NCBI RefSeq assembly: GCF_000003605.2
Contig: NW_003134855.1
Coordinates: 102,531 to 123,797 of the forward strand
Length of the DNA stretch: 21,267 bases
Direction of reading: 5' to 3'
Origin: Saccoglossus kowalevskii
Taxonomy: Eukaryota; Hemichordata; Enteropneusta; Harrimaniidae
Part shown: one piece after another, positions 1 to 17,889 of the stretch
Position numbering within the stretch: position 1 is the first letter of the stretch
How the letters are laid out: every line of letters begins with the position of its first letter
The notes under the pieces: model-generated
Databases searched by the model: none
What the model saw: only the letters and a program-made list of their open reading frames with translations
What the model was told of the DNA's origin: nothing
Program-made: the position numbers and the translations under genes

Positions 1-1848
1 ACCCAGCTGATGCTTTCATAATATGTTGCTGTGTTGTCGATGACAGCCGTGCTAACACCGAAGCAGTAGAAGCCAATAGTATAACATTAAATCTCCAACA
101 ATAGACAGTTGACAACACGTGACACCCATTAGTAACATCGCGCCATTTATATTGCTGAAAAGGGAAATGTTAAATTGCTGCTTCGCTTGACAGTATACAA
201 TTTCAAATGCATTATAGTTTTATATTTTTCAAATGGTGTTATGTGATATACATTGTAATAATAATAGTGTGAATTGAAACAATATTAGAGTGATGATTTG
301 GAAATATTGAATTGTGCTACAGCTGTACGGATGTCAAGCGTTGAATTGACAAGGTGATAGTAGTAACGCCCACTCGGCTATGTATTTGGGAATACAATTT
401 TTAATAATAACATTCTATTATCTCAGATTGTCATTTTTAATAAAAGAGTAAAGCTGAAATTATTTTCTTCAAAATGATAGCAATTTGTGTTACAATATAC
501 TGGATATATGTAAACCGCTCATTTGTGTTATAATTGTGTGTGTTCCATCACGGATATAGCTGAGTGACTAACCCGTTCGTTGTGTCGGTTATAATATCGG
601 ATAATCACCTATACTATTGTAGATACTAATCGACTGAAACGAATATAAATGTTGCGTTGCACGAATGCATAAATTAATGCTGCATCGTTTCATCATTTGT
701 TGATAATGTTACGAAGTCATTTTCCGTCCTTGCCTCCGTCCTCCGTCCTTGGAGTGCCTGAACCTTACCTGAACGAGTGTTGATAAAAAATCTATTTAAT
801 TGGCCTTTCAGTAAGATTTATAGAACATGTAATTCTTCAGTGTTTTGTGTAGTTCTTCAGTGTTTTGTGTAGTTCTTCAGTGTTTTGTGTAGTTCTTCCA
901 TATATCTAGTTAAGCATATCTCACAGCAAATTTATTTACTGGATGAAATTCACCATGAAAATAAAGAACTCAGTAGTGTAAACAACATACACAATAATGA
1001 CCCATAAGTGCAAATCCCAGAATCCACAGCTTCCCTTTTAATGGCGTGACACCTCTTTCTTCGGATTATCAAATGTCAAGCGAGTTACAAGGATTAACAA
1101 AGTGGCAAAATAATCCTGTGTCAAAAGAACACGCCTGTTGTCACCAAGGCACTATTATATCATAATTCATATATATATATATTTGTATTTGGGGGATATG
1201 GTGGCTTTGAGTATTAGACACATCACAACATTATTACGCTACGTGACAGTGATTTATTAACATTCAACATAAAATGTTTGAATTTATAGAAAAGAATGAC
1301 AGTGTTCCTTTTAGACTATGGGTGTACAGTCACTGTATTTGTTTGTGAAACATCGACTTTGTGCGTTTTATTTTGTTCATTAACGTTACCAATAATATTA
1401 TAACATACGGGAACGTACTTTAAAATATATCAGATCAACGCTTACTACACCGATGTCCAAAATCAAATTTAGTAATGTATGTGAATATTATCATAGTTTA
1501 TATATCTGAGCACAAAACAATATATTAATAACGAAATTTGAATTGCTGTTTATTATCAGTCATTTATTGCATTTAACAAACTAGGCTTTCATGGAAAAGC
1601 CGACAGTGGTTCATATATGATTTAGTTTCTGTATAATTATTTCTGGATAATTAACGAGAAGATTCCGTGATTCTGTGTGCACACTGAAAGATATTGTATT
1701 CTATGTACTAGTAATCATGCGTAAACACATTCACGATTAGATCTGTTATCGTGGTAGAAACTACCTCTATAATTGAATATAACGATTAAATGACCATAGA
1801 TAACGTAACGTCATCTTGAAACGAATAATTTATGTAATATTACACCAT
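1..1848. other. AT-rich noncoding DNA
   Basis: Apart from the 20-bp tandem repeat at 831-899 and a short (TA)n near 1171-1181 I see no gene, RNA or mobile element. Confidence 0.6.
831..899. repeat. Tandem repeat, 20-bp unit, about 3.4 copies
   Basis: The 20-bp unit AGTTCTTCAGTGTTTTGTGT is repeated at 831, 851 and 871 with one substitution in the first copy, then a partial copy at 891-899. There is no associated gene. Confidence 0.93.
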
Positions 1849-1849
1849 T

Positions 1850-1866
1850 GTGCGCCCTCTAGTGAC
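1850..1866 (-). promoter_or_regulatory. CTCF-like motif (minus orientation)
   Basis: Read on the minus strand the site is GTCACTAGAGGGCGCAC, fitting the core pattern SYAGRKGGCR at every position. It is the left inverted end of the 231-bp element. Confidence 0.4.
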
Positions 1867-8615: not shown

Positions 8616-8921
8616 ATGACAGATCCAGAGAAGATACCGATCTCCGGATCGATCGAGAAGATGGCTCCAAATGGGAACGTTAAACTCACAACACAGACTG
8701 TCAAACTGGCAACACAGCCCGACAACCCGTCCTTCTCGAGCGAAGACGGCACTGATGATACCAAGCCAATTTTGAAGAAAAGCAAAAGCGTCGAAGAGGA
8801 GAAAAATCTGAAATATTCATTCATGTCGCGAAGGCAAAAATTTACTGTGGCTAGTATATCTATTATGAAATTCACATCGTCGCTGTGTTATTCGGTTATA
8901 GCACCGTTTTTTCCTGACAAG
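8616..8921 (+). CDS. SLC18B1: SLC18B1-like coding exon 1 (residues 1-102)
   Basis: Starts at ATG 8616 and ends in AAG|GTAAGG (donor GT at 8922), phase 0. It encodes a polar, Ser/Thr/Lys/Glu-rich cytosolic tail (about 1-75) and helix 1, which ends in the family's PFFP turn (97-100). The reading frame runs on to a stop at 8991-8993, but that extension has no family similarity and lies past a consensus donor. Confidence 0.93.
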
Positions 8922-11900
8922 GTAAGGCATCCATTGCGTTTATGCTGTACGTTTTGTGAGCTTCGTTTGGACCGTGACGTAATCACTGGCTAGCAACCAC
9001 AAACAAATGTTTGAAACAAAGTAACAATTTCTGGCAAGGAGCAATCTATCTGATTTTGAATAGAATGTCCAATATATGTATCACATCTCACTAAGCACGT
9101 GACCACTCCCTTCTCATGTTGATAATTCTTAAATATGCCCCCTTCTGTAAACATTTGGAAAGTTCGGCGTTCTCCACTTGGATTTCCCACCCACAGATTG
9201 CAATTACATGAATAGTATAATACATGCATTCTTTAAATTTCTCGCCAAATTCCAACCTATAATAAATACCATCTCTTCATGAGATATTATAAGTAATCCC
9301 CTACCCTCAAGACATTACGATCATTTACCTGTGTTGTATGCGTTGCATAAGACCCCCCCCCCCCCATGACGCAGCGCGACGTCTCTCAAGTTCGCAACTT
9401 AAAACTACAATTGAACTGCATTGACATTTCAGGCAAGTGAAGTCGGCGCCTCGGAAACTGAGACTGGACTTGTATTTGGTATATATGCATTGACTCTGTT
9501 CTTATCAGCGCCTATCTTTGGAAAATTTGTAAGTTCAACTATTGTTTAACACATGTCATTCGGGCGTTGTGACGTCTTCCGTTCGATGGTGACGGACTCG
9601 GAAAACAGCTGTGATAAAGTAAATCTAAAACCAAACTAAGTATATATCGCAGTGGTACGTGTTGTGTGTGTGCGTGTGTGCTTCGTTTTTGGAATAACTC
9701 ATGACATCTCTACATTGGTACAACAATGTTTGAAATCTTTACATATTGCCGTGCAAGTAAAATGCGATCACGGTTTTTAATAGAGTTCAAGCCAAGTGTA
9801 AAACTTTGAGCATGTTACTATGACAACGCACTATGAAAGTGAAGTTCTTATTAGCTGTAATGAATTGAAAACTATTGCATGGCATTGGAAACTTACTTAA
9901 TTAAACTACAATTAATATTTACAATCATTTTTAAGTTGTAAGATGTAAAAAACATTGACAACTTTATCAGCCCATGTCGCCCTTGATTCAGGGTCGATAA
10001 ACTGATTTGACTAAAACAAGGTTTAATAACCGTGACCACGAGAACAAATACAAAATCGAATAATGATTTTGAAAAATGATGAAGATAAAAGCAATTGACA
10101 ATTATGCAATTTTCCACAATAATTAAGACTCTTGTTTCTCGATTGTCCGATGATACCATTTTCACACTTCATTAGCTGTATATTAAGACTCTTGTTTCTC
10201 GATCGTCCGATGATACCATTTTCACACTTCATTAGCTGTATATTAAAAATGTTGAGCCACATTAAGACAATTGATTTTAATTATTAGTTTGTCCGTCCCT
10301 CATTACATGAGTACCAATGTCTCTATGTGTTTATTTCTATTTTCATTTCAGTTGCCAAAATTGGGTTCCCGGAGAATGTTTCTCGGGGGAATGGCTGTAG
10401 GTGGTATCGCTACAATAGCTTTCGGGTAAGTGTCGGGGATAGTACAGCTGGGTCGTCAATAAATCTAATTTTAACCAATTCTAATTATAACTAATTATGT
10501 ATCTGTATAGAATTGTGATTATTGCATGTATAGATATGAATTATTAGAAAAGAGAAATAAACAAAAGCAGCGTTAGATGTTTGTAATTATATTATATGAG
10601 TACGTGACCTGTGCTATACAAAGGTGGTTTATGATATAACACGCGACATTTGTCGTAGACTTGCACCGACTTGTACAGTAAGAAGGTTAAGAAAGTCGTT
10701 TTCTTGATGTAACGTTGCTTGTATTTCACTGCTAATTGGTGTCAATGAACTTTTAAAACGCACATAAAATGATCGATGTCTAGAAGTGTCTCTCATGAAT
10801 TGAATTTCTTGTACGGTTATTACTGTTAAATTAAACTTAGACCGTGGCTGAACGTATTGACATGCAATGACAAATTTTACACTTTTTACACTGTTTTTTT
10901 TTATAGAATAGGTGGGTACATTACTGTTTCCTCATGTGTATGTGTGTATGTTGCATTACAATTGTTCACATAATAGTATCTGATATGTTACGCATGCGCT
11001 GTATGTGTGTATTACGTTATGATTAATTCTTTTTATTTTGCTATTTTCCTGTCAATTATAGAATTCTGGATGTGTTCGAAACCCGCGGCCTTTTCATTGG
11101 TATGTCATTTTTTATACGAATCATAGAAGCACTCGGGTGTTCAGCATGTATAACGGCCTCGTACGTTATTATAGTTAACGAGTTTCCTGATGCGGTTGCC
11201 ACGGCATCTGTGAGTATCACCCTCCTCTCGCCATTTTCGCACACACAACGAGCATCGTCTCTGATAAATTATGCGAACGAGGACGATAACCACGCATCAT
11301 CGCATACGCGATTACCATCTACACGTTTTTTAATATCCGACAAATCAGCGGGGGTTACGTGGTCTAATGAGACTACATATCTTACTGACAAGAAATCAAA
11401 ACGGGATTTCCAACGTTGTGATATTTCTGAAGTTCAATTTGGCGACAGAGGAATAACAGATTTATTATTAAATAATAATATTCATTGTGTTTATTTGATT
11501 AGAAGTATAATAAAAACACTCAGCTGTTGACATGCCACTGATGTCAGGGTCGAAGAGGTTATCGGTTGTTTTCCAAGATTCGGAGTATCTGCACTTTCGT
11601 TGGCATGAATATATCCACTATTCGCATCAATGAATAATGGACGTAAAACATAGCAGCTGGGAAGTTCACATTCCGTTTTGATATTAAATATGGATATTTT
11701 TTCAATACACCGTAATTCATAATTTATTAGTTTCTACTGTCCCCGTGTCACTTCTAATGTTGAATTTTTGTACTGCTGCAGGGAACCGTGGAATTATTCA
11801 ACGGACTTGGATTCATTGCAGGACCAGTCGTGGGTGGCGCTCTTTATGACGTGAGTACGAACCTTGCTTTTTGAATATATCTAATTTTCTTTTTATATTT

Positions 11901-14900
11901 CGGTCTTGAATTATACTTTATTTTCACTGGTTATTTTGAAGCCTCAAAAGTAGCATTTGAATCGGTTGCCGTCAGACCAGGCAATGTATACCTGTCTTGT
12001 GACAAGTAGCAACTATGTACAGGCGAATTTAGGGGACAGTCATTTGAAATCATAGGAGGGGCTGGACTAATGTGTGTAACCAACGCAATTTTGTTTTCGC
12101 CGTGTCTAACCTGTACATTTTTATTTTCGTGAGTGTACAAGCACCGTTTCGTACAGTACGTTGTACTCTCTCGGTGCCGAGCGTACAGTTTTTTCAACAA
12201 ATCGTCCAGCCACCCCTCCAACCCAGTGTCTACCAACATCACGGTGTATATCGTCTTAACCTCCCAATTAAATAACTACTACCGTTATTACAGGCTGGTG
12301 GCTACATGCTTCCTTTTATACTCCTGGGTGCAATTATGTTATTATTTGCTCTTCTTACATACTTTCTACTACCAATTCAAGAAAAAGGTACGTTAATATT
12401 TCCAATGACTGTAGAGCGTTGTTAATAACTAATATCGTCGGGTCTGTCAACACAAACTTTTCACAAATAGACGTATCAATTCTAACGTATCAATTTGTTG
12501 TCGTTCAACTTCAAGTAAAACATATATATATCGGGAAAACCGACAAGTCGTGCAACACATGTTAGCAAACGTTTCGTTTGAAAGTGCCAACGGGTTTACT
12601 GGCTAGTTTCTCGTCTCTCATTGCTATAGTTTCTCCCCACAGATGATTCAAAAATAGAAACAGGGTCACTTTTAGAATTGCTAAAGGTTCCTGCCATTTT
12701 GATCACTGCCATGGCAACGTGTATGGGAGCAGTAGCACTATCTTATATGAACCCAACCTTGTCTATACATCTAGCACCGGTAAGTGACGCTCTTCCATGT
12801 GTGGAAGTTCTATGCAGTTATGTATATATAATACCGGATATATTTAGTGGTTCATAATAATTCTTATGTAGTTTGTGAGCTAATTGTATATGAAATTGTC
12901 GACCCTCTAGGCTCACGATAATTCATTCGTCACACGTTTCATCAAAGTTGTTTTCAATTTCTTCCACCCAGTTCAATCTGAGCAGGACAGTGGTAGGGCT
13001 GTTTTTCTTGTTAGTTGCGCTATGCTATGCTGCCTCTGCCCCACTCTGGGGGTGGGTTTCGGACCTTAAAGGAGTACACGTAAGTAACCAAATAGTCGTT
13101 ATAGTCGAGTTAGTCGACTCGTATAGTATTTGACGTCACAATGACATACTTATATATAAACACCGGTCACGTGCGCATCAGCGCCGGTTTCGGTTTACAA
13201 CACGGCGAACTTTTTCCCAATATAACAACAAAGTATTCGTCATATCTGTATTTTGTGACAAGTATGTACATATACAACTATGAAAATCGTGTTTATCTGT
13301 AGGGTGTTGCCAAAATTATTATGACTGGAGGTCTCTTTGGAGCAGCTTTGTCGTATTTCTTAGTTGGGCCATGTCCAATATTTGGAGTCGAATCGTGAGT
13401 ATTTTGCTTGCACTTTGAAAAGTACCAAAAACCAACCCCCTTCATACGGATTCAGATATCGATAAATATGTGTTTAGTATTTTTGTTTCAATTGTTTCAA
13501 TTTGTTCACGAACACGTAATGATTTATGGTAATATATATTTATATATGCCGTGTGGTGTCACCCACAATACATTGATATTCTCCATCCTAGAGGGCGTAG
13601 CCTATAATAATGGTTTACTAGTTCAATGACACTTCAAAAATGTAACGCAAAAACTGATAAAAAAATTGTGTTGTTCAAAAATCGAAATTCTGCATAAGGA
13701 TATGTTTCAGTTTTATTATTTTGTTTAGACCTTGCTGCTTTAATATTCTAAGTCAGCGTTTGTGTCAATACGTATTATTACTTCTGTGTCTAGTGTGGTA
13801 CTTGCGGTATCTGTGTGTAGACATATTTTCCAGGGTCATTTAACATTTTCTTCTCGTTTCTACATAATATTTAGTAAACTGTGGTTGATAGGAGTATCGC
13901 TGGCATTACTAGGGTTTTCACTGGCGGCTATTCTAGTACCAATCCTCAGAGCCGTACTTGAAACAACAAGGTAAATATACTATAATTTTCGTTACATCAT
14001 ATTCCAATGGATATGTAAAGAAATGATTCAGTGATATAAGTATTCAAGTTTTTGTGATATAATCGAACTTTCACTGCATTGCAACATTGGCTATTACATT
14101 GTTAAAAGGCATTGCGTCATAATTGCATGGTATTTAATACTGGGTTAACATGCTCATTTCTCCACCAGAATGGCCGGTTTACAAGACAACATGGCTACAT
14201 ATGGAATGGTTTCTGGCCTGTTTTACTCCATGTACTCACTCGGGTAAGTGACCTGGTTTACTCCATGTTCTCACTCTGATAAGTGACCTGGTTTACTCCA
14301 TGTACTCACTCTGATAAGTGACCTGTTTTACTCCATGTACTCACTCGGGTAAGTGACCTGGTTTACTCCATGTTCTCACTCTGATAAGTGACCTGGTTTA
14401 CTCCATGTACTCACTCTGATAAGTGACCTGTTTTACTCCATGTACTCACTCGGGTAAGTGACCTAGTTTATTCCATGTTCTCACTCTGATAAGTGACCTG
14501 GTTTACTCCATGTACTCACTCTGATAAGTGACCTGTTTTACTCCATGTACTCACTCGGGTAAGTGACCTGTTTTACTCCATGTACTCACTTGGGTAAGTG
14601 ACCTGTTTTAGTCCATTGACTCACTCTGATAAGTGACCTGTTTTACTCTATGTACTCACTCTGATAAGTGACCTGTTTTACTCCATGTACTCACTCGGGT
14701 AAGTGACCTGTTTTACTCCATGTACTCACTCGGGTATGTGACCTGGTTTACTCCATGTACTCACTTGGGTAAGTGACCTGTTTTACTCCATTGACTCACT
14801 CTGATATGTGACCTGTTTTACTCTATGTACTCACTCTGATAAGTGACATGTTTTACTCCATGTACTCACTCGGGTAAGTGCCCTGTTTTACTCCATGTGC

Positions 14901-17889
14901 TCCCTCGGGTAAGTGGCTTGTTTTACTCCATATACTCACTCAGGTAAGTGACCTGTTTTACTGCATGTACTCACTCGGGTAGGTGACCTGTTTTACTCCA
15001 TGTACTTACCCGGGTAGGTGACCTGCTTTACTCCATGTACTCACTCGGGTAAGTGCCCTGTTTTACTCCATGTGCTCTCTCGGGTAAGTGACCTGGTTTA
15101 CTCCATGTACTCATTTGGATAAGTGACCTGTTTTACTCCATTGACTCACTCGGGTAAGTGCCCTGTTTTACTCCATGTGCTCTCGGGTAAGTGGCTTGTT
15201 TTACTCCATGTACTAACTCGGGTAAGTGACCTGCTTTACTCCATGTACTCACTCGGGTATGTGACCTGTTTTACTCCATGTACTCACTCGGGTAAGTGAC
15301 CTGTTCTACTCCATTGACTCACTCGGGTATGTGACCTGTTTTACTCCATGTACTCACTCGGGTAAGTGCCCTGTTTTACTCCATGTGCTCCCTCGGGTAA
15401 GTGGCCTGTTTTACTCCATATACTCACTCGGGTAAGTGACCTGCTTTACTCCATGTAATCACTCGGGTAGGTGACCTGTTTTACTCCATGTACTCACTCG
15501 GGTAAGTGCCCTGTTTTACTCCATGTGCTCCCTCGGGTAAGTGGCTTGTTTTACTCCATATACTCACTCGGGTAAGTGACCTGTTTTACTCCATGTACTC
15601 ACTCGGGTAGGTGACCTGTTTTACTCCATGTACTCACTCGGGTAAGTGCCCTGTTTTACTCCATGTGCTCCCTCGGGTAAGTGGCCTGTTTTACTCCATA
15701 TGCTCACTCGGGTAAGTGACCTGTTTTACTCCATGTACTCACTCGGGTAGGTGACCTGTTTTACTCCATGTACTCACTCGGGTACGTGACCTGTTTTACT
15801 CCATGTACTCACTCGGGTAGGTGGCCTGTTTTACTCCATGTACTCACTCGGGTAAGTGCCCTGTTTTACTCCATGTGCTCCCTCTGATAAGTGCCCTGTT
15901 TTACTCCATGTGCTCCCTCGGGTAAGTGACCTGTTTTACTCCATGTACTCACTCGGGTAGGTGACCTGTTTTACTCCATGTACTCACTCGAGTACGTGAC
16001 CTGTTTTACTCCATGTACTCACTCGGGTAAGTGACCTGTTTTACTCTATGTACTCACTCGGGTAAGTGCCCTGTTTTACTCCATGTGCTCTCGGGTAAGT
16101 GGCTTGTTTTACTCCATGTACTAACTCGGGTAAGTGACCTGCTTTACTCCATGTACTCACTCGGGTAAGTGACCTGTTTTACTCCATGTACTCACTCGGG
16201 TAAGTGACCTGTTCTACTCCATTGACTCACTCGGGTATGTGACCTGTTTTACTCCATGTACTCACTCGGGTAAGTGCCCTGTTTTACTCCATGTGCTCCC
16301 TCGGGTAAGTGGCCTGTTTTACTCCATATACTCACTCGGGTAAGTGACCTGCTTTACTCCATGTAATCACTCGGGTACGTGACCTGTTTTACTCTATGTA
16401 CTCACTCGGGTACGTGACCTGTTTTACTCCATGTACTCACTCGGGTAAGTGACCTGTTTTACTCCATGTACTCACTCGGGTAAGTGCCCTGTTTTACTCC
16501 ATGTACTCACTCGGGTAAGTGCCCTGTTTTACTCCATGTGCTCTCGGATTAGTGACCTGGTTTACTCCATGTACTCATTTGGATAAGTGACCCGTTTTAC
16601 TCCATTGACTCACTCGGGTAAGTGACCTGTTTTACTCCATTGACTCACTCGGGTAAGTGACCTGTTTTACTCCATGTGCTCCCTCAGGTAAGTGCCCTGT
16701 TTTATTCCATGTGCTCTCTCGGGTAAGAGACCTGTTTTACTCCATGTACTCACTCAGGTAAGTGTCCTGTTTTACTCCATGTGCTCTCTCAGGTAAGTGC
16801 CCTGTTTTACTCCATGTGCTCCCTCGGGTAAGTGACCTGTTTTACTCCATATACTCACTCGGGTAAGTGACCTGTCTTACTCCATGTACTCACTCGGGTA
16901 GGTGACCTTTTTTACTCCATGTACTCACTCGGGTAAGTGCCCTGTTTTACTCCATGTGCTCTCGGATTAGTGACCTGGTTTACTCCATGTACTCATTTGG
17001 ATTATTGACCTGGTTTACTCCATGTACTCATTTGGATAAGTGACCATTTTACTTCATTGACTCACTCGGGTAAGTGACCTGTTTTACTCCATGTGCTCTC
17101 TCGGGTAAGTGCCCTGTTTTACTCCATGTGCTCTCTCGGGTAAGTGCCCTGTTTTACTCCGTGTACTTACTCGGGTAAGTGACCTGCTTTACTCCATGTA
17201 CTCACCCGGGTAAGTGACCTGTTCTACTCCATTGACTCACTCGGGTATGTGACCTGTTTTACTCCATGTACTCACTCGGGTAAGTGCTCTGTTTTACTCC
17301 ATGTGCTCCCTCGGGTAAGTGGCCTGTTTTACTCCATATACTCACTCGGGTAAGTGACCTGTTTTACTATACATGTACTCACTGGGATAAGTACCTGTTT
17401 TACATTACATACTCACTCGAGTAAGTGCTTACAAAGTTCTTAGCGCAGGCAGGTTAAGCGCCATCTTACGTGGAGAGTGGTATGAAGCAAAAGAAACATC
17501 TCAGTTTACGATAAATATTAATTCCATTTGTTCTTCAACATGCATTATCAAACAATATTAAACATATATATGTCTTCGTCTATGTTCCATTTTTAAGATA
17601 TGCTAATGAGAGATAGTGATTATTGTCTTTCTTTCTGTTTTACAGAGTATTCGTTGGGCCGACTGTGAGTGGTACTCTTACTGACCTGTATGGGTTTGGA
17701 TGGGCGACCTCTATCAACGGTCTACTCATGCTAGTGATGTCAATAATATTGTGCTCATTCACAGTGCACACTCGCAGAAAACACAGGTTTGCTGCCGAAG
17801 AAGAATCGTCTGATCCGACACACATGGGATGGGTCAATCTTAAATCTGTAGGTTCAATTCAAACCAAAGCCGTTGCTGCCCAGCATTAG
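8616..17889 (+). CDS. SLC18B1: SLC18B1-like vesicular (polyamine-type) MFS transporter, 12 coding exons
   Basis: Join of 8616-8921, 9433-9528, 10352-10425, 11062-11209, 11782-11850, 12294-12387, 12643-12779, 12972-13079, 13303-13394, 13875-13970, 14169-14243 and 17646-17889 gives 1539 nt, 512 residues plus TAG. Every junction is GT..AG and keeps frame. The protein is hydrophobic with about 12 membrane helices after a roughly 75-residue polar N-tail. MFS motif A is seen as G132..G139-S-R-R, motif B as R178..E181..G184, motif C as G222-P-V-V-G-G227, and a second-half echo as G432..G436-P437. Alignment from memory to human SLC18B1 holds over the whole core, including CYS..PFFP in helix 1, DPTLS-like NPTLS and LW near helix 10. 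Helix 1 has Ser88 where VMAT/VAChT carry Asp, which favours SLC18B1 over the monoamine or acetylcholine carriers. The human protein loads polyamines into vesicles in exchange for protons; substrate here is inferred. Length is about 55 residues above human, mostly the N-tail. D48-TKP-IL53 resembles an acidic dileucine sorting signal. Confidence 0.93.
8922..9432 (+). other. Intron 1
   Basis: 511 bp, GTAAGG..TTTCAG. It contains the C13 tract and no other recognisable feature. Confidence 0.9.
9353..9365. repeat. C13 homopolymer in intron 1
   Basis: Thirteen consecutive C, 67 bp before the exon 2 acceptor. It is liable to length variation and assembly error. Confidence 0.95.
9433..9528 (+). CDS. 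SLC18B1: SLC18B1-like coding exon 2 (residues 103-134)
   Basis: Bounded by TTTCAG (acceptor at 9431-9432) and TTT|GTAAGT (donor at 9529), phase 0 at both ends. It encodes the loop after helix 1 and helix 2 (ETGLVFGIYAL..), ending at G132-K-F, the start of MFS motif A, which continues in exon 3. Confidence 0.93.
9529..10351 (+). other. Intron 2
   Basis: 823 bp, GTAAGT..TTTCAG. It contains a TG-rich stretch (about 9659-9680) and the 60-bp duplication. Confidence 0.9.
10122..10241. repeat. Perfectly phased 60-bp tandem duplication in intron 2
   Basis: 10122-10181 and 10182-10241 are the same 60 bp with one difference (T at 10144, C at 10204), and the first few bases of a third copy follow. It is a recent duplication; both copies are open on the minus strand only by chance. 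Confidence 0.95.
10352..10425 (+). CDS. SLC18B1: SLC18B1-like coding exon 3 (residues 135-159)
   Basis: Acceptor TTTCAG at 10350-10351, donor GG|GTAAGT at 10426, leaving two bases of a Gly codon (phase 2). It encodes the rest of motif A (PKLGSRR, 136-142) and most of helix 3 (MFLGGMAVGG..). Confidence 0.92.
10426..11061 (+). other. Intron 3
   Basis: 636 bp, GTAAGT..TTATAG. A second strong acceptor-like T10-ATAG lies at about 10892-10906 but leads into no coding sequence. Confidence 0.88.
11062..11209 (+). CDS. SLC18B1: SLC18B1-like coding exon 4 (residues 159-208)
   Basis: Acceptor TTATAG at 11060-11061 completes Gly159; donor TCT|GTGAGT at 11210, phase 0. It carries helix 4 with R178 and E181. 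The Arg aligns with the helix-4 Arg of vesicular amine transporters, and an acidic residue also follows it in human SLC18B1. The segment ends in FPDAVATAS, matching the conserved FPnnVAT loop of the family. The reading frame stays open for 106 codons into intron 4 (see findings). Confidence 0.93.
11210..11781 (+). other. Intron 4
   Basis: 572 bp, GTGAGT..TGCAG. The exon 4 frame stays open to TGA at 11528-11530, with an AATAAA at 11509-11514 just before it. Confidence 0.88.
11782..11850 (+). CDS. SLC18B1: SLC18B1-like coding exon 5 (residues 209-231)
   Basis: Acceptor TGCAG at 11780-11781, donor GAC|GTGAGT at 11851, phase 0 at both ends. It encodes helix 5 with MFS motif C (GFIAGPVVGG, 218-227), the antiporter signature of this superfamily. 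Confidence 0.93.
11851..12293 (+). other. Intron 5
   Basis: 443 bp, GTGAGT..TTACAG. The 103-codon minus-strand open frame inside has no recognisable domain. Confidence 0.88.
12294..12387 (+). CDS. SLC18B1: SLC18B1-like coding exon 6 (residues 232-263)
   Basis: Acceptor TTACAG at 12292-12293, donor AAAG|GTACGT at 12388, phase 1. It encodes helix 6 (PFILLGAIMLLFALL..) and the start of the central cytosolic loop. Confidence 0.91.
12643..12779 (+). CDS. SLC18B1: SLC18B1-like coding exon 7 (residues 263-308)
   Basis: Acceptor CCACAG at 12641-12642, donor CCG|GTAAGT at 12780, phase 0. It encodes the short polar central loop (DDSKIETG..), the LLKVPAI segment and helix 7, ending in NPTLSIHLAP, which matches the DPTLS block of human SLC18B1. 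Confidence 0.92.
12972..13079 (+). CDS. SLC18B1: SLC18B1-like coding exon 8 (residues 309-344)
   Basis: Acceptor CCCAG at 12970-12971, donor CAC|GTAAGT at 13080, phase 0. It encodes FNLS, helix 8 and the second-half motif-A-like loop SAPLWGWVSD (330-339), equivalent to SSPLFGLLSD in human SLC18B1. Confidence 0.92.
13303..13394 (+). CDS. SLC18B1: SLC18B1-like coding exon 9 (residues 345-375)
   Basis: Acceptor CTGTAG at 13301-13302, donor TC|GTGAGT at 13395, phase 2. It encodes helix 9 and the GPCPIFG loop, equivalent to the GPVPIL block of the human protein. Confidence 0.91.
13395..13874 (+). other. Intron 9
   Basis: 480 bp, GTGAGT..TTTAG. It contains CTAGAGGGCG at 13588-13597, the same CTCF-like core as in the element at 1849-2079. 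Confidence 0.88.
13875..13970 (+). CDS. SLC18B1: SLC18B1-like coding exon 10 (residues 375-407)
   Basis: Acceptor ATTTAG at 13873-13874 completes Ser375; donor AAG|GTAAAT at 13971, phase 2. It encodes KLWL, helix 10 with a conserved Pro (VPIL), and the loop that continues into exon 11. Confidence 0.91.
14169..14243 (+). CDS. SLC18B1: SLC18B1-like coding exon 11 (residues 407-432), parent of the tandem array
   Basis: Acceptor CCACCAG at 14167-14168, donor CTCGG|GTAAGT at 14244, phase 2. It encodes the loop before helix 11 and its first half (GMVSGLFYSMYSLG), matching GLVSGLF in human SLC18B1. Its last 27 bases and the adjoining donor are the source sequence of the minisatellite that fills most of intron 11. 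The first donor must be the authentic one, because frame and protein similarity continue only if exon 12 is joined here. Confidence 0.91.
14217..17428 (+). repeat. Minisatellite of about 90 copies of the exon 11 / intron 11 splice-donor junction
   Basis: Period is about 35 bp, with some units of 31-36. Each unit contains TTTTACTCCATG, then ACTCACTCGG, then GTAAGTGACC or a variant. Unit one is real coding sequence (14217-14243) with the real donor; the remaining units fill intron 11 up to about 17428. By hand count about 56 copies keep an exact GTAAGT; others are GTAGGT, GTATGT, GTACGT, or have lost the GT (TGATAAGTG, GGATTAGTG). There is no unique spacer between units. This is a locally born tandem repeat, not a transposon. 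Confidence 0.95.
14244..14558 (+). repeat. Three-copy 105-bp higher-order repeat at the exon-proximal edge
   Basis: Blocks 14244-14348, 14349-14453 and 14454-14558 each consist of the same three unit variants: a TGTTCTCACTCTGAT unit, a TGTACTCACTCTGAT unit and a TGTACTCACTCGG unit. Blocks one and two look identical and the third has a few substitutions. This means recent amplification by multiples of the basic unit. Confidence 0.85.
17429..17645 (+). other. Distal part of intron 11
   Basis: Unique AT-rich sequence between the end of the array and the acceptor of exon 12. The pyrimidine tract CTTTCTTTCTGTTTTACAG precedes exon 12. Nothing else is recognisable. Confidence 0.7.
17646..17889 (+). 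CDS. SLC18B1: SLC18B1-like coding exon 12 (residues 432-512, stop)
   Basis: Acceptor TTTTACAG at 17644-17645 completes Gly432. The alternative AG two bases on would break frame. It encodes the second GP motif (G436-P437) ending helix 11, helix 12 (about 450-470), a basic patch (TRRKHR, 474-479), an acidic EEESSD stretch (483-488) and a short C-tail ending QH before TAG 17887-17889. Unlike human, the tail has no C-terminal dileucine. Confidence 0.93.

Follow-up and report, generated by a model that had tools for sequence, protein, structure and literature searches.

The window analysed here, 21,267 nucleotides of Saccoglossus kowalevskii DNA forming one end of a 123,797-base contig, contains an SLC18B1-like MFS transporter gene in which the end of coding exon 11, together with its splice donor, has been amplified into a minisatellite of 92 units lying in intron 11. 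Tandem repeats of this kind, which span an exon-intron boundary, are known from lancelet genes under the name of mirages. We estimate at about three in four the probability that the array is a minisatellite of the mirage type, tolerated as junk DNA rather than maintained as a device, with exon definition favouring the first of its many donors.

Anatomy and origin of the array

Tandem Repeats Finder (TRF) reported a single array at 14217-17427 with a period of 35 bp and 92.0 copies (88% matches, 0% indels, score 4829), and at this score a chance origin of the array is not in question. The original prediction, made from the sequence by eye, had given about 90 copies and a period of about 35 bp, and its hand count of 56 exact GTAAGT was matched exactly by the program count. 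On the plus strand these 56 hexamers lie within 14217-17428, compared with seven in the remaining 18,055 bases of the window. Our own segmentation yielded 92 contiguous units with no spacers between them, as had also been claimed (Table 1). Most units measure 35 bp (86 units); units 28, 54, 67 and 79 have 33 bp, unit 82 has 34 and unit 91 has 36. The unit is CCTGTTTTACTCCATGTACTCACTCGG followed by GTAAGTGA and combines 27 nt from exon 11 with 8 nt from the intron, in agreement with the predicted composition of exon end, donor and first intron bases. The units are not uniform, as 55 distinct aligned sequences occur among the 92, and nine units (1, 4, 7, 10, 14, 31, 52, 57 and 64) are identical to the consensus. 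The block copies and the degenerate 3' edge listed in Table 1 are ordinary minisatellite turnover. In the assembly searched (572 Mb, 4830 contigs) one copy of the locus was found, and at the sensitivity of the search used the array was found nowhere else, all 52 matches being on the contig of the window.

The protein of the gene matched MFS_1 (5.3e-47), and the best match among solved structures was SLC18B1 (9d7u) with 2.8e-79 over residues 69-469. Across the junction of exons 11 and 12 the protein aligns gap-free with the solved SLC18B1 (...glfysmyslgvfvgpt... vs ...glfsamwsigafmgpt...). The claim that unit 1 is still coding and conserved was borne out by this alignment, and the independent exon model likewise made exon 11 the eleventh coding exon. 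As unit 1 is identical to the consensus and conserved protein is encoded by its exonic portion, exon 11 is taken as the source of the array. Intron 11 measures 3402 nt, of which 94% is array, intron 10 has 198 nt and the remaining introns of the gene range from 192 to 823 nt.

The age of the intron was approached through contig C2922, which carries a distant paralogue (46% identity over 47 residues). There, an acceptor-like tttcag, judged by eye, precedes an exon that agrees in codon and phase with the gene studied here. The alignment extends a few codons into the putative intron, of which only the acceptor side is in view. The paralogue thus seems to share the intron position in both codon and phase, and intron 11 would accordingly seem to predate the array if the acceptor has been read correctly. 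The array probably began as a short tandem duplication that by chance covered the exon 11 end together with its donor. Its intronic copies would then have grown to 92 units via slippage and unequal exchange or block copying, whereas unit 1 would have been kept by selection on the protein while the other units drifted.

Table 1. Coordinates of the array, of the transporter gene and of two comparable loci (positions in the window unless a contig is given)
Feature	Position	Strand	Remarks
Minisatellite array	14217..17428	+	own segmentation: 92 units of ~35 bp, 56 exact GTAAGT, GT in 74/92
Unit 1	14217..14251	+	final 27 nt of exon 11 and initial 8 nt of intron 11; matches array consensus exactly
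Units 1-9, three-unit block A-B-C x3	14217..14531	+	third B with 2 differences; donor GT->AT in B and C
Units 28-36, nine-unit block	15162..15474	+	repeated as units 54-62 (16070-16382), 26 units away, 2 differences
Units 91-92, degenerate 3' edge	17358..17428	+	segmentation
True donor GTAAGT (CGG/GTAAGTGA)	14244..14249	+	sole donor keeping the reading frame
Unique part of intron 11	17429..17645	+	217 nt, 3' end = ttctgttttacag
SLC18B1-like MFS transporter gene	8616..17889	+	12 coding exons, 512 aa, GT-AG junctions with open frame throughout
Coding exons 1-6	8616-8921, 9433-9528, 10352-10425, 11062-11209, 11782-11850, 12294-12387	+	exon model
Coding exons 7-12	12643-12779, 12972-13079, 13303-13394, 13875-13970, 14169-14243, 17646-17889	+	exon model
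Coding exon 11	14169..14243	+	75 nt, phase 2 at either end
Coding exon 12, stop codon TAG	17646..17889	+	exon model
L034, spermidine synthase-like exon end and donor	C253:453700-455800, array 1185-1865		41 bp x 16.6; exon E = 8.6e-26
L039, HADH-like exon, then donor repeat	C93:64100-66700, array 1274-2601 of reverse complement	-	31 bp, at least 42.9 copies; exon E = 1.7e-12

Comparison with known repeats and with other arrays of the genome

Tandem repeats across exon-intron boundaries were described in lancelet globin genes by a study that cites the same for Adh3 and calls them mirages (PMC3087553), and the lancelet genes TnC and PGBD5 were added in a further study (PMC3902484). In the passages of both papers considered here, normal splicing is reported to proceed undisturbed in spite of the lancelet mirages. 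The array of the transporter gene resembles those of Adh3, BflGb6/BflGb9, TnC and PGBD5 in that the unit spans the boundary, the repeat adjoins the true boundary and the splice signals are repeated with it. Moreover, unit 1 at its edge is the authentic exon end, and homogenised blocks occur together with a divergent edge. The array is a large case of a known kind, a mirage, and not a new system. What is unusual in it is its size: according to the same passages, which lack the copy number of the Adh mirage, BflGb6 has 6 and 3 units in two haplotypes, PGBD5 has a 108-bp repeat x3 and units range from 10 to 160 bp, whereas 92 units are present here. The original prediction knew of no described case of this scale. 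With regard to the kind of repeat this did not hold, since it had been described in lancelets and in human IFI6, but none of the passages on known cases contains an example as large.

In anatomy, the nearest match is IFI6 (6-16), where a minisatellite supplies repeated splice donors. The IFI6 unit is 12 bp long, a multiple of 3, and the downstream donors keep the frame. Unlike this, the 35-bp unit shifts the frame and leads at once to a TAA, as was found for 52/52 scored later donors. Judging by its title, a paper by Turri, Cuin and Porter from 1995 reportedly described a minisatellite of splice donors in human IFI6, and together with Canestro 2002 it is said to be a founding paper for these repeats. 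Other systems are less close. The 38-bp variable number tandem repeat (VNTR) in TERT intron 6 is likewise an intronic minisatellite of similar period but differs in that it acts by RNA:RNA pairing, as stated in the part of the study consulted (PMC3948165). In the Rogers model, outlined in the excerpt used here, introns are gained by tandem duplication of AGGT segments (PMC4974935). A segment bearing a splice site is duplicated there too, but the array shows no sign of a new intron and its intron seems older than the array itself. For the metallothionein minisatellites of earthworms an intronic position is given, and the passages on them do not mention boundary spanning (PMC12783039).

We also asked how often donor motifs are repeated in the assembly, using a pattern of three GTAAGT, or of three copies of one of three permuted hexamers, 20-50 bp apart, with hit numbers swayed by long satellites. 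Triple GTAAGT gave 5703+5117 = 10,820 hits, compared with 15104+16803 = 31,907 for TGAATG, 21224+17772 = 38,996 for ATGTGA and 12468+22183 = 34,651 for AGTGTA. As single hexamers, these motifs occurred 28 (GTAAGT), 41 (TGAATG), 44 (ATGTGA) and 25 (AGTGTA) times on both strands of 118,055 bases (64,243 N). Repeated GTAAGT is not enriched genome-wide and is if anything scarcer, and the genome is rich in minisatellites. Strict triples of CAGGTAAGT gave 32 hits in 4 places, and the reversed control gave 21 hits. The only four places with tandem CAGGTAAGT triples at the set spacing were C998:891640-892476, C1685:12192-12904, C2921:147882-148072 and C4258:44103-44171.

The first 100 matches listed in contig order fell into 20 places, of which 19 were kept after a simple GTAA repeat on C285 had been dropped. 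In three of these the starts were unreadable owing to N (C29) or to an array that fills nearly the whole stretch (C224 and C260:231139), which left 16 readable places. Two of them lie at exons proved by homology, namely the spermidine synthase-like (SRM; L034) and HADH-like (L039) exons in Table 1. In the HADH-like case the unit includes about four exon bases and the array reaches the end of the examined stretch. At L037 an acceptor, an open frame and a donor are present, although PDB and Pfam gave no match, and this is probably a third array at an exon end. L035 is a possible case, L040 is open but unclear, and 11 places have no visible exon; for two of the latter (C93:44339 and C284) no array was reported by TRF within the short stretch covered, and they may not be arrays. 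The exons were judged by eye, with searches of PDB and Pfam for L034, L037 and L039 and of Pfam alone for one L040 peptide, so unknown or fast-evolving exons would be missed. The same anatomy in the spermidine synthase-like and HADH-like genes shows that such arrays recur within the genome.

The share of arrays at exon ends was compared with what random seeding of minisatellites would give. On the assumption of 150,000-300,000 donors, 15-30% of them with GTAAGT, 7-25% of the GTAAGT arrays are predicted to lie at exon ends. The observed share was 2/16 = 12.5% (95% 2-38%) or, with L037, 3/16 = 19% (95% 4-46%), which fits random seeding. In the transporter gene GTAAGT is present in 5/11 donors, and a frequency of this order would raise the expectation. 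This suggests as a null model a minisatellite-rich genome in which arrays form at exon ends by chance and persist within the intron. A rough extrapolation puts the places with repeated GTAAGT at about 2,160 genome-wide, perhaps one in six of them at an exon end. That a lineage outside lancelets carries hundreds of donor minisatellites at exon ends, with a splicing machinery that can select the first among dozens of identical donors and array length tuning the amount of truncated mRNA gene by gene, appears improbable to us.

Choice among the repeated donors

To score the donors we considered GT sites in 14244-17440 with at least 8/11 matches to the U1 target, and 53 sites passed, donor 1 included. 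For the first eight listed, again with donor 1, the U1 pairing energy was -12.2 to -12.9 kcal/mol, so the later ones among them are as strong as donor 1. With each of the 52 later donors translation would stop after residue 432 of 512, since reading past donor 1 gives CTC GGG TAA, and retention of intron 11 results in the same stop. Any transcript that skips donor 1 thus runs straight into TAA, and the protein can be made with this donor only. Use of the next intact donors, in units 4, 7 and 10, would lengthen the exon from 75 nt to 180, 285 and 390 nt, respectively. The 53 near-equal sites within a single intron make this locus a natural experiment on spliceosomal choice between identical 5' splice sites, and on whether exon definition is enough for the first donor to be selected.

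Where 5' sites are of nearly equal strength, human genes under exon definition favour the upstream site, most strongly when the preceding intron is short and the following one long, and they also favour smaller exons, as reported in the sections of the study at hand (PMC9225289). Because of this preference, and given 198 nt for intron 10 and 3402 nt for intron 11, donor 1 is predicted to be used and the later donors to be mostly ignored. The array would be tolerated on account of its intronic position and of the lengthening of intron 11 from about 220 to 3402 nt, by which exon definition would come to favour the donor nearest to the exon 11 acceptor, namely donor 1. Transcripts using a later donor would meet the TAA right after exon 11 and be lost as truncated protein or degraded mRNA.

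Several points weigh against this reading of a tolerated array. Without a filter for strength, the downstream 5' site wins in about 60% of the human cases and holds the majority in all four intron classes, again according to the sections considered (PMC9225289). The human IFI6 repeat uses two of its downstream units as donors, yielding three mRNAs in the account available (PMC4526556). Units without a donor GT crowd near the exon, with 10 within units 2-18 compared with 8 within units 19-92, which could mean selection against nearby decoys. Finally, the donor columns are slightly better kept than the rest of the unit in L034 (0.990/0.975), L037 (0.981/0.969) and L039 (0.969/0.940). In L035 they are less conserved (0.803/0.963), and as all four arrays were chosen via the GTAAGT search, donor conservation there is weak evidence either way. 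In the window array itself the donor columns showed no preference in conservation (0.926 vs 0.931 for the rest of the unit).

One alternative is a regulatory array for poison splicing, in which splicing draws on later donors at a defined rate, the resulting stop after exon 11 lowers the amount of transporter, and array length perhaps sets the extent. The uniform stop and the equal U1 pairing would suit such a function, and there are precedents in the two IFI6 donors and in the control of TERT splicing by its VNTR, as far as the passages on them go (PMC4526556, PMC3948165). We nevertheless consider it unlikely, as the donor columns of the window array are not preferentially kept, units 2 and 3, the copies next to unit 1, have lost their donor, and the later donors require exons of at least 180 nt where smaller exons are preferred in the human data cited above.

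Somewhat less likely still is a scenario in which selection silenced the first extra donors while intron 11 was about 220 nt long, by GT->AT in units 2 and 3, and the block then spread. The crowding of GT losses near the exon is in line with it, as is the preference for the downstream 5' site between short flanking introns in the human study (PMC9225289, passages considered). However, the ten GT-less units among units 2-18 all carry one and the same change (CTG/AT), found elsewhere only in unit 48, and in part they are copies of the A-B-C block, so they may represent a single event. In addition, GT is intact in every segmented unit of the SRM (16), HADH (43) and L037 (9) arrays, the first extra units included. 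Because of the shared change and the intact arrays, selection against near decoys is not demonstrated, and the losses may all go back to a single founder that spread through block copying.

Even lower we rank a U1 platform, whereby dozens of donors would gather U1 snRNP and thus shield a long intron from premature polyadenylation or help to define exon 11. The number of sites resembling the U1 target speaks for it, but intron 11 contains no AATAAA and a single ATTAAA, which lies 3' of the array, and neither the donor columns of the array nor the genome-wide counts of repeated GTAAGT show the corresponding preference. Taken from the sequence, bulk recruitment of U1, regulated decoys and active suppression are all unsupported, although the array may still have an effect on splicing. 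Very improbable, finally, is an assembly artefact with inflated or chimeric copy number: the near-identical nine-unit block could be a mis-join and the contig contains long N runs, but 55 distinct unit types over 92 units argue against simple copy error, the flanks are clean and unique with the gene intact on both sides, and similar arrays exist in other genes.

Further observations on the contig and the assembly

The consensus unit contains TCACT...AGTGA, and an RNA hairpin masking the donor was considered and rejected, as four stretches folded no better than shuffles (z -0.13, 0.31, 0.46 and -0.30). On the minus strand of 14244-17428 the complement of the unit has GTGAGT, and donor-like GTRAGT occurs 60 times there and 56 times on the plus strand. 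Two short tandem duplications were found by TRF in the window, 60 bp x 2.1 at 10122-10246 in intron 2, away from boundaries, and 20 bp x 3.5 at 828-898, upstream of the transporter gene. In the readable part of the rest of the contig (100,000 bases, 64,243 N) TRF gave no unit with a donor-like GTRAG, and an Rfam scan of the window gave no family reaching the gathering threshold.

A search for the GFP family gave no hit, and neither did its controls, which makes it uninformative. The assembly also includes a mitochondrial contig (C4830, 17,037 bases). Its COX1 has 7 TGA inside the frame, and AAA is best read as lysine in a putative ND1 frame. COX1 lies on the strand opposite to this frame and to another, which we take to be COX2 as we take the former to be ND1. 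In the vertebrate mitochondrial order COX1, COX2 and ND1 share one strand. The run ND3-ND4L-ND4-H-S-ND5 of the contig presumably follows a deuterostome-like order. Lancelet mitochondrial orders are vertebrate-like or named Asymmetron rearrangements, none of which inverts COX1 in the passages considered (PMC2034537), and the order of C4830 with its inverted COX1 does not fit the lancelet orders given there.
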